From positions 1 to 64,000 of the forward strand of contig NZ_RCOS01000087.1 of NCBI RefSeq assembly GCF_003947435.1: a DNA stretch of 64,000 nucleotides. Reading direction: 5' to 3'. How positions within the stretch are numbered: the first letter of the stretch is position 1; every line of letters starts with the position of its first letter. The position numbers and the translations under genes were made by a program. This document shows positions 27,166 to 45,652 of this stretch, one piece after another. The notes beneath the pieces are model-generated. The model ran no database searches. It worked only from the letters and a program-made list of their open reading frames with translations, and was not told where the DNA came from. This stretch comes from Candidatus Methanodesulfokora washburnensis. Its GTDB lineage: Archaea > Korarchaeota > Korarchaeia > Korarchaeales > Korarchaeaceae.

Positions 27166-27813
27166 CTAGCTTCCCATTAAAGAGCTTCTTAGCGTTTCCT
27201 CTATTGAATCAAGCTTGCACTCCGGACGTATTTTGCGGGAGAAATCCCTCAATATTTTGATCAGATCCTCTAGGAGTTCTTCCTTCTCCCAAGGAGGCAT
27301 CTCCCCTTTTGCCACATCTATCTTCACGCCGTATCCTCTTAGAAGCCTCTCTATGCATTTAAAGTGGAATCTGAAGAGCCTGTCGCTGTAGGCAACCACT
27401 ATTACATCGACCATCCCATTCAGAACCATGTCTATGATCTCTGATATTCCTTTTCTCTCATCATCCAAGCAGGATGATACCTCCTCTATCACCCTCACTA
27501 CTTTATATCCCTTTTTCTCACAATAGTTCTTTAAGAAAGACACTTGTCTATCTACCTCATCCCTAAGATCCCTGAAACATGCTCTTGCATATATGACAGC
27601 CCTGAGCTTTCCCCTTTTACCTCCTTCAAGTATTCTCTCTACCTCGCTTTTTGGTATCCTGTAATGTCCTCCTCTTGTCCTCACAGCCTTTAGATATCCC
27701 GACCTTATCCAACATCTTACAGTTGATTGATGTATTCCCATCATATCAGCTAACTCACTCACTTTTAAATATCCCCTAATGTTGATTTTCTCGATTTCAT
27801 TCATGAATCTCAC
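27166..27813 (-). CDS. Orphan IS607-type serine recombinase with catalytic Ser replaced by Cys
   Basis: The 215-residue protein has an N-terminal MerR-type HTH (residues 14-55: YLKVSELADMMGIHQSTVRC, GGHYRIP) and a resolvase domain (70-215: VIYARACF, DVIVVAYSDRLFRFHF, then a YGVKIDV strand). IS607 TnpA proteins normally read YARVSS here. Position 79, where the catalytic Ser stands, is Cys. No tnpB lies beside it and no ends were found. It is therefore either a dead transposase or a domesticated DNA-binding protein. It is divergent from, and 58 bases from, the Get3-pair locus and could regulate it (inference). Confidence 0.75.
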   Translation of the reverse strand: MRFMNEIEKINIRGYLKVSELADMMGIHQSTVRCWIRSGYLKAVRTRGGHYRIPKSEVERILEGGKRGKLRAVIYARACFRDLRDEVDRQVSFLKNYCEKKGYKVVRVIEEVSSCLDDERKGISEIIDMVLNGMVDVIVVAYSDRLFRFHFKCIERLLRGYGVKIDVAKGEMPPWEKEELLEDLIKILRDFSRKIRPECKLDSIEETLRSSLMGS

Positions 27814-27871: not shown

Positions 27872-28177
27872 ATGTTGAGGAGGAAGGAAAAGAAGGAGGA
27901 GAAGGAAAAGGAGGGAGAAAAGAAATCTAGCGAGGTTAAGGAGGCAGTAGCAGGCCTTATCTATGGAATGTCTGCTCACGCTGTCACAAGACAGATGCTG
28001 AAGACAAGAATGTATCTAGAGCACCTCTTCATGCTGATAACATTAGGAGATATGATGGGGATCCCTATTCTTCCACCGTATTACTCATTAAAGCTCCTTC
28101 CATATGCAGTGCCCAACGTGAAGACATGGAAGAGGAGCATGCTGAAGGAAAGAGATGTCACGGATATGCTGTACTGA
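27872..28177 (+). CDS. Small partner protein A of the Get3-pair locus
   Basis: The 101-residue protein has a highly charged Lys/Glu N-terminus (1-25) and an amphipathic/hydrophobic C-terminal part with MYLEHLFMLITLGDMMGIPI, then LPPYYSLKLLPYAVP. It is clearly paralogous to the protein at 30238: both keep GDxxGxPxxPxYxLxLLPYxxP and a K/W basic tail. The start ATG 27872 has gggtgat upstream. It precedes the first ATPase by 9 bases. The hydrophobic Pro/Tyr/Leu segment may be membrane-associated or a client-binding lid. Family unknown to me. Confidence 0.6.
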   Translation: MLRRKEKKEEKEKEGEKKSSEVKEAVAGLIYGMSAHAVTRQMLKTRMYLEHLFMLITLGDMMGIPILPPYYSLKLLPYAVPNVKTWKRSMLKERDVTDMLY

Positions 28178-28186
28178 GGTGTCCTC

Positions 28187-29188
28187 ATGCTCTCCCTGAA
28201 GGAGTTCTTCGAGAAAAAGCCCAACATAAAGGTCATAGTGAATGCGGGAAAGGGAGGGCTTGGAAAGACTACTTCTAGCGCCGCAATGTCCTACTGGTTT
28301 GCCAAAAATGGGAAGAAACCACTTTGCTTCAGCACAGATCCTCAGGCCTCCCTGAGCGATATATTTGAGATGGATATATTCGGAAAGGGGATCATAGAGA
28401 TCGAGAAAAACCTGTTTGTAGTCGAGATAGATGCAGATAAAAGGATAAAGGAGTTCCAAGAGGAGGTCAGGAACAAGATAAAGACGATGTATGGAATAGA
28501 TGAGATACCTGAGGAGATAGATGAGTACATAGAGACCTCCGCTTATGAGCCGGCAATGCATGAATCAGCTACATACGATGCAATGGCTGATCTCCTGTCA
28601 AAAGGGGAGTTCAATCCATATGTGTTCGACATGCCCCCCTTCGGCCATGGAGTTAGGATGGTGAGCATGGCAAGAATACTCGATGCTTGGATAGACAAGA
28701 TGGAGGAAACTAGGAGAAAAGCAGCTGAGTACGCACAAGCAGCTGCTTATCTGAAGGGAATTAGCTCCAAAACCGAGGAGGATATCCTGAAGGAGCTGAG
28801 AAGCATAAGAGAAAAACTGGATTTCTTCAGGGAAGTTCTCACAGACCCAGATGCCTGTGCATTCTTCATGGTCATAATTCCTGAGAAAATGGCCATATTG
28901 GACACAGAAAGAGCTATAGAAATGTTCAGAAAGCTGGATATAGAGATGGCCGGTGTTATAGTAAATCAGGTGTATCCGAGAGAGCTTCTTGAGAGGCCTG
29001 ATGTGGGGGAGTTCCTGAAGAGGAGGGTTGAGATGCAGCAGGCATATCTTAAGGAGATAAAGGAGAAGTTCGGGGATTATGTGAGAGCAGTTGTTCCAAT
29101 GTTTGATAGAGAGCCAAAGGGAATGGAGATGATAGCCAAGGTAGCTGAACATCTATTTGAGAAACCAGGTTTGGAGGTGTTTGAATGA
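28187..29188 (+). CDS. Get3/ArsA-family ATPase A (catalytic residues conserved)
   Basis: The 333-residue protein carries a deviant Walker A GKGGLGKTT (residues 21-29), the switch I Asp51 in FSTDPQASLSD, and the switch II region DMPPFGHGVR (148-157), i.e. the Get3 residues that activate water and couple hydrolysis to dimer opening. A helical insert (about 85-200) follows the Get3 layout, and the zinc CxxC of Get3 is missing. It probably hydrolyses ATP as a dimer and targets a membrane client. It lies in one operon with a second, degenerate ATPase whose ATG overlaps its stop. An arsenite role is unlikely: no arsB or arsR is nearby. Confidence 0.8.
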   Translation: MLSLKEFFEKKPNIKVIVNAGKGGLGKTTSSAAMSYWFAKNGKKPLCFSTDPQASLSDIFEMDIFGKGIIEIEKNLFVVEIDADKRIKEFQEEVRNKIKTMYGIDEIPEEIDEYIETSAYEPAMHESATYDAMADLLSKGEFNPYVFDMPPFGHGVRMVSMARILDAWIDKMEETRRKAAEYAQAAAYLKGISSKTEEDILKELRSIREKLDFFREVLTDPDACAFFMVIIPEKMAILDTERAIEMFRKLDIEMAGVIVNQVYPRELLERPDVGEFLKRRVEMQQAYLKEIKEKFGDYVRAVVPMFDREPKGMEMIAKVAEHLFEKPGLEVFE

Positions 29189-30225
29189 CAGTTGTTGCGG
29201 AGAAGCCTGTTGGTTTTAGGGAATATGTTGAGAGCCACGAGACCCTGAAGTACTTCTTTACAGGAGGAAAAGGGGGAGTGGGAAAGACTATAGCTGCCGC
29301 CGGGATAGCAGCTTACTTTGCTAACAATGGAAAAAGGGTTCTGCTGGCATCTCTCAACCCTGTTCACTCTCTCTCCAGCTTGTTTGAGCAGGATCTTTCA
29401 GGAGGATTGATAAAACCTGTCAAGGGAATCAGAAATCTTGATGCAGTGGAGGTGGATATAACGGACAAGGTGAACAGCTACAAAAAACAGCTGGCTGACA
29501 GGCTCACTTGGTTCCTGAAGTGGGCTGACATACCAATGAAGGCCTCTGAGTTCATAGATATCGCAGCTACAAACCCGGCATTTGAGGAAAGTGCTATGTT
29601 CGATGCTGTTGTTGATATAATATTACAGCAGAAAGAGAATTATGATAAAATAGTATTTGATTGTGCAGCAGTGGCAAATGCAGTCAGGCTTCTCGGCCTG
29701 AACAAGATTTATGGTCTCTGGCTGAGGAGGATGATAAAGAGCAGGGAGGAGGCTTTGTCACTTAGGGTAAAGCTTTCATTCAGGAAGGAGAAGGCTATGG
29801 AGGAGATAAAGAAGGATCCATTAATGGCAGACTTGATAGCTCTGGAGGGAAAGATAAATAAGGCTAGTGCTATTCTGGGTGATCCAAGCCAGACTGCGTT
29901 CTTCTTTGTCACTCTACCGCTTGCCCTGCCGATATCTGTTGTAGAGAGATTCATAAACATGGTGAGAGGTTTCAACATAGCGATAGGAGGGGTTATAGTG
30001 AATGGAGTTCTTAGAAAGGATCTTGTGGCTGAGGGAGGGACTGAGTACCTGAAGAACAAGTACGAGGAGCAGAAGAGATACCTGAAGATTATAGAGGAGA
30101 AAATGGGGCCTCTTGTGAGGGCTGTGATACCACTTTATGAGACTGAGATTGCAGGAATAGACATGATAATGAGAATATCTGAGGATCTTGCAACATGGAC
30201 TCCTGAGAAAGGACTCCTCCTCTAA
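29185..30225 (+). CDS. Get3/ArsA-family ATPase B (switch residues degenerate)
   Basis: The 346-residue paralog of the preceding gene keeps the Walker A GKGGVGKT (28-35) but has Asn58 (ASLNPVHSLSS) where Get3 proteins have the catalytic Asp (STDPAHxLSD), and the switch II reads FDCAAVANAVR instead of DTAPTGH-like. The Asp-to-Asn change is the one used experimentally to block hydrolysis in yeast Get3 (D57N). It should bind but hardly hydrolyse ATP. Start ATG overlaps the previous stop by 4 bases, so equal synthesis and a heterodimer with ATPase A are likely (inference). Confidence 0.8.
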   Translation: MTVVAEKPVGFREYVESHETLKYFFTGGKGGVGKTIAAAGIAAYFANNGKRVLLASLNPVHSLSSLFEQDLSGGLIKPVKGIRNLDAVEVDITDKVNSYKKQLADRLTWFLKWADIPMKASEFIDIAATNPAFEESAMFDAVVDIILQQKENYDKIVFDCAAVANAVRLLGLNKIYGLWLRRMIKSREEALSLRVKLSFRKEKAMEEIKKDPLMADLIALEGKINKASAILGDPSQTAFFFVTLPLALPISVVERFINMVRGFNIAIGGVIVNGVLRKDLVAEGGTEYLKNKYEEQKRYLKIIEEKMGPLVRAVIPLYETEIAGIDMIMRISEDLATWTPEKGLLL

Positions 30226-30237
30226 TCGGGTGAGCTC

Positions 30238-30477
30238 ACGAGGAGGGTAAGGGAGTTTCTGCATGGCTTTGCTGTGCTGCCTCATATAAAGACCCTTGAG
30301 AAGCTGAAATTTGAGGAGGATCTGAATTTCATGACTCTGACTGTGGGAGATCTGATAGGTCTTCCCACAGTTCCTTTTTACAAACTTGCACTCTTACCTT
30401 ACTGGTTTCCTCTGATAGACAAGTGGAGGGAACATGTCCTATCAGAGAGAGGAGCCTTGGAGAAAATTCAGGAATGA
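30238..30477 (+). CDS. Small partner protein B of the Get3-pair locus (noncanonical start)
   Basis: The paralog of the 27872 protein: VGDLIGLPTVPFYKLALLPY aligns with LGDMMGIPILPPYYSLKLLP, and similarity continues upstream to FLHGF, residues that lie before the only GTG (30274). In-frame upstream codons include ACG at 30238, 4 bases behind ggtgag, and CTG at 30259, but no ATG, GTG or TTG. The real start is thus probably noncanonical; 30238 is my best guess. It closes the set small A - ATPase A - ATPase B - small B. Confidence 0.55.
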   Translation, partial: TRRVREFLHGFAVLPHIKTLEKLKFEEDLNFMTLTVGDLIGLPTVPFYKLALLPYWFPLIDKWREHVLSERGALEKIQE

Positions 30478-30493
30478 TTCTGGGTGAGCTTAG

Positions 30494-30991
30494 GTGGGCA
30501 GAAGAACTGTCAACCTTGAGGCAGGAAACATTTTGATGGGAACCACCTCATTTCTCTCTTTTAACATACCGGAGGACTGGAGAGCATTTCCTATCGGTGT
30601 TGCTGAGGTGGAGAGCTCTAGAAGAACTGGGGATCGCAGTTGGGTGACTAATGGCTACATTATGGTGGGCCTCTCTTCTGAGAGAGGAGAAGAGGTTTTA
30701 ATGACGATCAAAACATCAGAACCCATTAAAAAATTTGATATTGAGAGATGGATTCATGATAAAGCCAGAAAGGGAATGTTGCATGGAGTCATCATGGTCA
30801 ATGGACACAAATGCGGCTATATGATGAACAGAATTGAAAAAGGCATTATCAAAAGGGAAAAACTGATTGAGCTCACTCTCTGCTTTTTCTGTGATATCAC
30901 CAAAAGAAAAATAGAGATAAAACTTACTGGAAGAAAAGAAGAAAATGTTATGCTGTTTAAGGAGCTCATAGTCGATCTTTCCTGTCATTAG
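30494..30991 (+). CDS. Hypothetical protein downstream of the Get3-pair genes
   Basis: The 165-residue soluble protein starts at a GTG (30494) with gggtgag 6 bases upstream, directly after small partner B, so it is probably the last gene of that operon. It has beta-rich patterns: LMGTTSFLSFNIPEDWRAFP, GYIMVGLSSERGEEVLM, GVIMVNGHKCGYMM, then LTLCFFCDITKRKIEIKLTG. It resembles a small lipid-binding or PsbP-like beta sheet only in outline. No family recognised. Its 3' end overlaps the convergent gene by 26 bases. Confidence 0.55.
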   Translation: MGRRTVNLEAGNILMGTTSFLSFNIPEDWRAFPIGVAEVESSRRTGDRSWVTNGYIMVGLSSERGEEVLMTIKTSEPIKKFDIERWIHDKARKGMLHGVIMVNGHKCGYMMNRIEKGIIKREKLIELTLCFFCDITKRKIEIKLTGRKEENVMLFKELIVDLSCH

Positions 30992-31589
30992 GACAGCATG
31001 CTGATGCTATTTTCTCAGCAAGAGGAACTAGAAGCTTGAGAGTATCTTCTTCGACATCGCATCTCATTATCAGATGAGGTTCCTCCTTGGATATAGAGAG
31101 CCCTTTCACCTTTATCCTGTCAAAAAGCTCCTTTATCTCGCTGTTCAGCAGTATTCTTGCAGCTTTCGATGCATCATCCGAGAAGAACCTTAGATCACCT
31201 AAAATGCCCCATTCAAGCGGTTTTAAGCCATCCCCAGTGCTTGAAAGCCTGAAAGATGGATTGCAGGAGAAGGATGCCTTCAGGTATACCTCATCTTTTT
31301 TCCCAGAAGCTTTCTGAAAGATATAGTGGAGGAAATTCTCCCTGTCCATTAGGACAAAGGTCACCTCTACCTTAAAAAGAGGAGATTTCCCATGAAAACT
31401 TATTTGAAATCCGCTAGATCCAAATCTCCTAAATCCAACTTTTCTAGTATATCCTTTTATATATGGGGACAGAGCTCTCCAGAGCTCATTTTGCCTCTTC
31501 AAATTCATCCTTTTTGCTATAGCATACCATATTGTCATAAAAACTGCTAACAGCAATACTACCAGAAATCCTATCTCCATCTTCACCAC
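30966..31589 (-). CDS. Hypothetical membrane-anchored protein
   Basis: The 207-residue protein has one N-terminal transmembrane helix (residues 4-24, MEIGFLVVLLLAVFMTIWYA) and a cytoplasmic-type charged domain with beta-rich segments (FQISFHGKSPLFKVEVTFVL and YLKASFSCNPSF). It has no sequons, and basic residues follow the helix, so the domain probably faces the cytoplasm. No family recognised. The gene converges on and overlaps the gene at 30494. Confidence 0.5.
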   Translation of the reverse strand: MVKMEIGFLVVLLLAVFMTIWYAIAKRMNLKRQNELWRALSPYIKGYTRKVGFRRFGSSGFQISFHGKSPLFKVEVTFVLMDRENFLHYIFQKASGKKDEVYLKASFSCNPSFRLSSTGDGLKPLEWGILGDLRFFSDDASKAARILLNSEIKELFDRIKVKGLSISKEEPHLIMRCDVEEDTLKLLVPLAEKIASACCPNDRKDRL

Positions 31590-31711: not shown

Positions 31712-33418
31712 ATGTATCCCGTCTGGTTCGTGATTCTGGCCATAGTGGCGTACTTGCTAGCATACTATGCCTACGCCAAGTGGTATGACAGGAAGGTCTG
31801 GGAGCCTGATCCAAAGAGGGCAACTCCGGCTCACATGTACATGGATGGAATAACATTCTTCCCTGTGAGCAAATATGTGCTCTATGGGTTTCAATTCAAG
31901 GGAATAGCCGGGTTAGGACCAATATTAGGGCCTTTCGTAGCCCTGTACTATGGATGGATCCCAGCCCTAATATGGATAATCCTTGGTAATTTCTTCATAG
32001 GGTGGATACATGATTACACATCCCTCTTCCTCTCGGTGAGGAATGACGGGAAATCGATGGGTCCGCTCTCATATGAGTTGATAAGCCCAAGAGCTAGAAC
32101 ATCCCTGCTTGGATTCCTGTTCTTCTATCTCATACTGATAGTAGCAGTTTTTGCAGTTCTCTGCAGCACTTTCTTCCTCAAGTTCCCTGAGACAGTCTTG
32201 GCCACAGTATTCCTGTATATAGGAGGGATAGTGAGCGGCCTTCTTTTGTACAAGGCAAAGACCGGTGTTATAACATCGACAGTAGTGGGTCTTATCATAA
32301 CAGCTATCGGAATAGTTGCAGGCATGTACTTCCCACTGCCATATCCGCAGCTTGAGCTCTGGATTGTATTTACTTCAATTCTGCTCTTCATAGGGGCAAC
32401 TATATCCTTGATGTATGTGACACAACCTATCACCTATATTGCATCCTATCCGTGCTTGTTCGGCATAATCCTGTTGATATTGGGTGCTCTGATATCTCCC
32501 ATAACAAATGTCCCGATACAGCAAACCGCCTGGGGAGGATTTCTGGGAACAACAAATGACTTCTGGAGCCCTGGCCCTATATGGCCCATTCTCACAGTTT
32601 CAGTTGCCTGTGGAGCGATATCAGGTTGGCACAGCCTGATAAGCACGTCTGGATCAGCTCCTCAGCTTGATGTTGAGACAGATGCCCTCCCCGTTGCAGC
32701 AGGCTCGATGCTCACGGAAGGCCTTCTGGCACTTGCATCCGTCGCTGCTTACATGGTATTAACTCCTGCTGATCTCAAGACTGCTGGAGGGATAAACTGG
32801 GCTTCTTTAGTTCTCGGAGCTGTGAAGCTTATCTCACCGTACACAGGAGGAGCTGCTGCAGCACCCTGGATAAGAGCCTTCTTCGGGATGTGGCTTGAGA
32901 CATTTGCCATAACAATAGGCTTCTTAGCAGTGAGGTTCTTCTGGCTTGTATGGGCTGATGTAGTTGGCGGAAAGAGCCCACTTCTGGGAAACAAGTACGT
33001 CGGGGCAATAGTAGGGCTTGTGATAGCGGATATATTTGCATACACAGGAGCTTGGCAAAACATATGGCTGCTGTTCGGAGGGTCGAATCAGCTTCTTGCA
33101 GGCCTAGCCCTCACCTTGGTGACGATATACTTAGCTAAGCTGAAGAAACCAACTGCATACACATTCTGGCCAGCAATATTCATGATAATAACCTGCGAAG
33201 CGGCCCTTCTGTTTGAATCAGCTGTTTTCTTCAGAGCAGTAGCCATAGGGAAGCCTCTAGGAGCTGGAATGATGCTGAAGTATCCTGGAATTGCCCTTAC
33301 TCTGAATGCAATATTTGGAATAGTTGGCCTTGTGCTATTTGTGCTGGGGCTTGTAGTGGCTTATGACGGATTGAAGAGGTACTCTGAATACAGGAAGGCT
33401 GCTAGCAAGACCTCTTAG
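31712..33418 (+). CDS. cstA: Carbon starvation protein A family peptide transporter
   Basis: The 568-residue polytopic membrane protein begins WFVILAIVAYLLAYYAYAKW and has about 16 hydrophobic helices. CstA hallmarks are visible: TPAHMYMDGITFFP, HDYTSLFLSVRNDGKSMG, GAISGWHSLISTSGSAPQ and the late GGSNQLLAGLALT. The family imports peptides and pyruvate-like compounds. It is monocistronic, 82 bases upstream of the Elf1 gene. Confidence 0.9.
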   Translation: MYPVWFVILAIVAYLLAYYAYAKWYDRKVWEPDPKRATPAHMYMDGITFFPVSKYVLYGFQFKGIAGLGPILGPFVALYYGWIPALIWIILGNFFIGWIHDYTSLFLSVRNDGKSMGPLSYELISPRARTSLLGFLFFYLILIVAVFAVLCSTFFLKFPETVLATVFLYIGGIVSGLLLYKAKTGVITSTVVGLIITAIGIVAGMYFPLPYPQLELWIVFTSILLFIGATISLMYVTQPITYIASYPCLFGIILLILGALISPITNVPIQQTAWGGFLGTTNDFWSPGPIWPILTVSVACGAISGWHSLISTSGSAPQLDVETDALPVAAGSMLTEGLLALASVAAYMVLTPADLKTAGGINWASLVLGAVKLISPYTGGAAAAPWIRAFFGMWLETFAITIGFLAVRFFWLVWADVVGGKSPLLGNKYVGAIVGLVIADIFAYTGAWQNIWLLFGGSNQLLAGLALTLVTIYLAKLKKPTAYTFWPAIFMIITCEAALLFESAVFFRAVAIGKPLGAGMMLKYPGIALTLNAIFGIVGLVLFVLGLVVAYDGLKRYSEYRKAASKTS

Positions 33419-45555: not shown

Positions 45556-45652
45556 CGCCGGGGGTGGGATTTGAACCCACGCGGCCCAATGGGCCACTGA
45601 CTCTCCGCATACAATAGCAGGCCAGCCCCCTACCGGGCTAGGGCACCCCGGC
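45556..45652 (-). tRNA. tRNA-Ser (anticodon GCT) with 12-nt intron
   Basis: Acceptor GCCGGGG / CCCCGGC with discriminator G, D arm CCCTAGCCCGGTAGGGG, long variable arm (TGGCCCATTGGGCC), T arm GTGGG-TTCAAAT-CCCAC. The anticodon stem CTGGC / GTCAG is interrupted 3' of position 37 by TTGTATGCGGAG (45603-45614). A central helix CTGC / GCGG with 3-nt bulges TAT and AGA puts both splice sites exactly at the intron ends, a minimal bulge-helix-bulge. After removal the loop is CTGCTAA with anticodon GCT. Confidence 0.9.

Follow-up and report, generated by a model that had tools for sequence, protein, structure and literature searches.

Gene content of the locus

We describe a gene cluster built around two adjacent, unequal ATPases of the Get3/ArsA type in “Candidatus Methanodesulfokora washburnensis” (Korarchaeota). 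It lies on contig NZ_RCOS01000087.1 (assembly GCF_003947435.1), of which a stretch of 64,000 nucleotides (positions 1 to 64,000, from here on the window) was analyzed. Five genes follow one another nearly without gaps on the forward strand, namely a small protein of 101 amino acids (small A, 27872..28177), directly upstream of the catalytic-type ATPase A (28187..29188), the degenerate ATPase B (29185..30225), a second small protein (small B, 30238..30477, of uncertain start) and a hypothetical protein of 165 amino acids (30494..30991). A sequence-only reading of the window had already given this order, which the open reading frames bear out, and had closed the cluster at the hypothetical (27872-30991). 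The five genes are indeed there, but this interval is too short, as two further genes belonging to the cluster adjoin the hypothetical downstream. The first, on the reverse strand (30966..31589), codes for a CstY-like protein with an N-terminal hydrophobic helix and an alpha/beta domain, and the second (31712..33418, forward strand) for CstA, a transporter of the carbon-starvation family that matches PF02554 in Pfam (E value of 8.6e-97) and shares 30% of its residues with E. coli CstA across ca. 360 amino acids.

An asymmetric pair of ATPases

Both ATPases match PF02374 (ArsA_ATPase; Pfam E values of 2.7e-72 for A and 1.1e-54 for B) and TIGR00345 (GET3; 3.2e-70 and 4.5e-57), and both have the P-loop and the signature lysine. 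The difference lies in the active site. ATPase A carries the motif FSTDPQASL, whose Asp51 (codon 28337..28339, forward strand, like all the positions that follow) is the equivalent of Asp57 of yeast Get3, and a switch II, FDMPPFGHGV (DMPPFGHGV at 28628..28654), with D148 and G153-H154 intact. At the same places, ATPase B has ASLNPVHSL, with Asn58 (codon AAC, 29356..29358), and a degenerate switch II, FDCAAVANAV (DCAAVANAV at 29659..29685), where the Gly of the Gly-His has become Ala. In yeast Get3, mutants of Asp57 bind ATP and do not hydrolyze it.

The alignments confirmed these motifs, which the sequence-only reading had pointed out, and extended the asymmetry to the relatives. The position of yeast Asp57 is Asp in 41 out of 41 A-type proteins and in all 57 single-copy homologues, and Asn in each of the 40 B-type proteins; no B orthologue had the normal Asp. 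With such figures the asymmetry is not due to chance, nor is the Asn an artefact of selection, since the motifs used for the scan ([TA]TNPAF[QE]E and GGKGGVGK) do not include the B-type Asn. Proteins were assigned to the A or B type by their profile score against the window's phylum, and gene order agrees with the assignment. The Gly-His of switch II is likewise kept in every A-type protein (41/41), while in the B type the Gly is always Ala (40/40) and the His nearly always Asn (37/40). All the A, B and single-copy proteins compared retain both the signature and the P-loop lysine, as well as the Asp of switch II. The universal Asn in B, together with an A-B order kept across two domains of life, thus supports the earlier proposal of a catalytic half paired with a putatively non-hydrolyzing one.

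Two features of tail-anchored protein targeting are missing. The CxxC zinc site was found in none of the 81 A and B proteins, although it is absent in some archaeal Get3 as well, and the Met-rich, Leu-Pro-Phe-type (K..LPF) insert of classical archaeal Get3 was found neither in A and B nor in the CstA-linked single ATPases. In the sequence comparison, the insert of classical archaeal Get3 had on average 3.1 Met, against 1.3 in A and 1.5 in B. Both absences are evidence against tail-anchor chaperoning.

Linkage to CstA

Another 13 members of the phylum carry the pair in their genomes, accompanied there by the small proteins, the hypothetical, the 207-amino-acid CstY-like protein and CstA, although in some of these metagenome-assembled genomes (MAGs) single members of the cluster are on another contig. 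A frequent order is hypothetical - small B - CstA - small A - A - B, with the orthologue of small A again upstream of A; the linkage of the small proteins to the pair is therefore kept at the loci of relatives. Among the 29 genomes of the phylum surveyed, CstA was present in 14, the very ones that carry the intact pair, which is one of 77,558,760 ways of choosing 14 out of 29 if kinship is ignored; several of the 15 CstA-negative genomes are incomplete MAGs. One genome without CstA (G015, locus L054, C18:18883-19500) retains a decayed fragment of B, with two stops, and broken fragments of CstY adjoining it.

The pair also extends beyond the phylum. The B alignment was used to scan named genomes, the best 80 loci being kept, so that the range given here is a lower bound. 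Among the matches listed, B-type proteins appeared in the archaeal Bathyarchaeota, Pyrobaculum and other Thermoproteales, and Methanoperedens, and in the bacterial Anaerolineae and Thermoflexus (both Chloroflexota), Symbiobacterium, desulfo-/deltaproteobacteria, Acidobacteria, Gemmatimonadetes and one Acetobacteraceae MAG. At 26 of the 27 B loci fetched from named genomes, which are limited by contig ends, A was directly upstream of B and a CstX-like small protein came before A; B without A occurred at a single locus, on a truncated contig. CstA was inside the fetched stretch at 22/27. The small protein was in two copies at 14 loci and in one at 12, and the idea that each ATPase has its own cognate small protein is not supported. 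CstA, CstX, CstY and the hypothetical were the recurrent neighbors across pair loci (ars genes were not searched by name). Loci of another kind, which combine CstA and CstX with only one ArsA, were found in Bacillaceae, halophilic archaea, Halomonas, Gemmatimonadales and f10 archaea. Altogether, the A/B pair very probably serves CstA alone, whether as energizer or as chaperone. The sequence-only reading, which had missed CstA, had offered either targeting of a membrane client or a gated membrane device; the second is nearer to what we find than general client targeting.

In a maximum likelihood tree of the ATPases (quick search), A forms one clade (support of 99) and B another (100). These are sisters (99) and stand beside the CstA-linked single ArsAs (98), with classical archaeal Get3 outside. 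Within A and within B alike, archaeal sequences separate from bacterial ones. Likewise, the CstA proteins of pair loci make up one clade (99), apart from those of single-ArsA loci and from E. coli CstA. Sister A and B clades and a matching CstA clade suggest that an ATPase linked to CstA was duplicated once, after which the genes were inherited jointly and were in some cases transferred between domains, the direction of change being deduced from a midpoint root.

The small proteins and CstY

We equate small A and small B with the CstX described by Castillo & Saier (PMC2963123) by their size and position. They are homologous to each other (phmmer) and related to the NCBIfam family NF041419 (“cory-CC-star”), which matches small A with an E value of 1.3e-8, below the 80-bit cut-off, and small B, measured from its GTG start, with 5.9e-5. 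Within the family, 44 of the 46 members matched NF041419 (best E value of 5.8e-37); the family also takes in the small proteins of CstA loci with one ArsA. No paper was retrieved from the literature under the name “cory-CC-star”. The small-protein tree was poorly resolved, with small B evolving much faster than small A. In small B, homology reaches upstream of the listed GTG start at 30274, which removes homologous residues, and there is no in-frame ATG, GTG or TTG between the stop of ATPase B and that position, so that a non-standard start or a base error is likely. One candidate is the ACG at 30238, 5 nucleotides behind a ribosome-binding-like GGTG. The small proteins were also considered as tail-anchored clients of the ATPases and rejected: the best hydropathy of small A is 1.46 over 19 residues, and the Asp and Gly inside that segment leave no clear membrane helix.

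The CstY-like protein has 207 amino acids and one hydrophobic segment (Kyte-Doolittle hydropathy of 2.58), which fits the CstY of the literature, a protein of about 210 amino acids with a single transmembrane segment. It also adjoins ArsA and CstX at other archaeal loci and is absent from many bacterial pair loci and from single-ArsA loci as fetched. Its structure model is confident (predicted local distance difference test, pLDDT, of 94; predicted template modeling score, pTM, of 0.87). Only three Foldseek matches had E values below 0.001, all of them ribosome-translocon chains: 7tm3_4 (6.6e-9, probability of 1.00, template modeling score of 0.72 on the query), 9i78_4 (2.5e-7) and 6w6l_7 (3.8e-4); no other match was better than 0.08. 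Chain 9i78_4 is named CCDC47, and the other two are noted as translocon chains. PF07946 (CCDC47) was also the best Pfam match of CstY (E value of 2.5e-4, 20.8 bits versus a gathering threshold of 27.7), with weak matches in 9 of the 24 members. A profile of CstY sequences gave nothing significant against the PDB, where CCDC47 (9i78_4) appeared at an E value of 2.1. A search for CCDC47 in two Asgard genomes had no match, but the control genomes were also silent, which makes it uninformative. As modeled, therefore, CstY has the fold of CCDC47, a translocon subunit thought to be absent from prokaryotes.

How the pair may act on CstA

Probably, A and B are one two-part motor or chaperone for CstA. 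With moderate confidence, we favor an obligate heterodimeric A:B ATPase of the ArsA/Get3 type that energizes or gates CstA through CstX. Both halves would bind ATP, each lending its signature lysine to the site of the partner, and hydrolysis would take place in A only, because in B the Asp that activates water is replaced by Asn and switch II has degenerated. The dimer would dock at the cytoplasmic face of CstA via small A and small B, the helical CstX proteins, CstY would be a one-helix membrane subunit, and the ATP cycle would energize or gate the transporter as that of ArsA does ArsB. The substrate of CstA is probably pyruvate or peptides. Besides linkage, co-occurrence and clades, this reading is favored by the lack of any further full-length ArsA/Get3 in the genome, by the earlier proposal that ArsA energizes CstA through CstX (PMC2963123), and by the requirement of E. 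coli CstA for a small partner, YbdD, in pyruvate import (PMC5847655).

Several points weigh against this reading. Most CstA transporters, that of E. coli included, work without an ATPase. The structure model of small A had low confidence (pTM of 0.38) and was not used, and docking through CstX is putative. CstY resembles a subunit of a translocon chaperone, which suits biogenesis better than energization. Finally, a relationship of small A and B to YbdD was considered and rejected, with no homology detected by hhalign (probability of 1%).

The best surviving alternative is biogenesis, in which A:B would be a Get3-like chaperone that, with the CCDC47-like CstY and CstX, inserts, assembles or stabilizes CstA, ATP hydrolysis by A freeing the client. 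We regard it as possible, if rather doubtful. CstA is a polytopic membrane protein with many helices, Get3 itself handles membrane helices, linkage and co-occurrence fit equally well, and the likeness of CstY to CCDC47, in fold and in the weak Pfam matches, gives this alternative more weight. On the other hand, the hydrophobic Met-rich insert has been lost and the zinc CxxC is absent, homologues of CstA elsewhere need no such helpers, and CstY is missing from the many loci mentioned above. Energization or gating is preferred over biogenesis for the coevolution with CstA, the precedent of ArsA-ArsB and the loss of insert and CxxC. A broader reading, which we consider somewhat unlikely, makes CstY a relative and perhaps a forerunner of CCDC47 that, with the half-dead Get3 heterodimer and CstX, forms a private machine building or powering one transporter. 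If true, prokaryotes would have a chaperone system for membrane proteins that is reserved for a single client.

Separate homodimers of A and of B with separate jobs, B being a non-hydrolyzing regulator or nucleotide sensor, are improbable. The single-copy ArsAs at CstA loci, with a full active site, are presumably homodimeric, and homodimers were suggested by Castillo & Saier (PMC2963123), but the A-B order is fixed, B almost never occurs without A, and the archaeal and bacterial splits match between the two clades. General targeting of tail-anchored proteins by a Get3 proper, with CstA as a chance neighbor, is very improbable and was already disfavored, since, for all the family membership by sequence and the lack of other full-length Get3/ArsA proteins in the genome, co-occurrence with CstA is perfect, linkage holds across phyla, the CstA proteins encoded beside pairs group in one clade and classical archaeal Get3 falls outside the A/B clade.

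Whichever the output, a split dimer with one site permanently disabled, present in archaea and bacteria, would be a natural experiment on the roles of the two ATP sites.

Other features of the window

In the 165-amino-acid hypothetical, His105, Cys133 and a Cys-His placed strictly at the C-terminus are invariant in the alignment, an arrangement suggestive of a metal or redox site; a Pfam search with this protein had no match. A serine recombinase with a MerR-type helix-turn-helix (IS607-like; 27166-27813, reverse strand) adjoins the cluster, as it does at the sister locus L035 (4154-4813). A tRNA-like gene (45556-45652, reverse strand) has an anticodon that ARAGORN left unresolved (“???”) and possibly bears an intron. 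The assembly (G000) has 2.94 Mb and a contamination of 5.5%, versus 0.5-2.2 Mb in relatives; the contig looks native, because the A/B pair of the window is 81-83% identical to that of a member of the sister genus (G001).

Comparison with known systems

Compared with Get3/TRC40, the pair has the same fold, P-loop and signature lysine, and A keeps the Asp57 equivalent and the Gly-His of switch II (41/41), whereas B lacks the Asp (40/40), the CxxC and the classical helix insert are gone, and the system is tied to one transporter. The mycobacterial BagA/BagB (Rv3679-Rv3680), which are a heterodimer, are also two adjacent and different ATPases of this type; A and B were tried as members of these families and rejected, scoring 18-43 bits with NF053622 and NF053621 against cut-offs of 400 and 521. 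The ArsA-ArsB arsenite pump offers an ArsA-family ATPase energizing a secondary carrier, with two unequal nucleotide sites, but here there are two separate chains and a different carrier family, and no arsenic genes were noticed, none having been searched by name. CCDC47, of the PAT complex and multipass translocon, is matched by the CstY model (chain 9i78_4 and translocon chains); CstY is shorter (ca. 200 amino acids) than the eukaryotic protein, falls below the Pfam cut-off and is tied to one transporter. Prokaryotes have been stated to have no PAT components (PMC9630114, 2022), and we found no paper on a prokaryotic CCDC47 in the open-access literature; the fold of CstY conflicts with that statement and offers CCDC47 a possible prokaryotic relative.

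The closest precedent shows that the system, a candidate undescribed one in the sequence-only reading, is already known. Castillo & Saier (2010; PMC2963123) report ArsA-CstA-CstX operons, with CstY in five archaea, CstX duplicated in Thermococcus kodakarensis and adjacent ArsA pairs in two organisms (cluster 15; identities of 31% in Par and 25% in Sth), and propose that CstA is energized by ArsA with CstX as linker. These operons share with ours PF02374 and PF02554 in one cluster, a CstX of ca. 90 amino acids and a CstY of ca. 210 with a single transmembrane segment. They also note that the D of the SxD motif is replaceable only by N, and draw no link to the pairs. What we add is the universal A/B asymmetry, the single duplication, the matching CstA clade and the CCDC47 fold of the CstY model. 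The asymmetric, putatively heterodimeric form would thus be a variant whose key property had gone unrecognized in the literature searched, and one in which point mutants offer a direct test of the idea, put forward in 2010, that CstA is driven by ATPases of the ArsA type.

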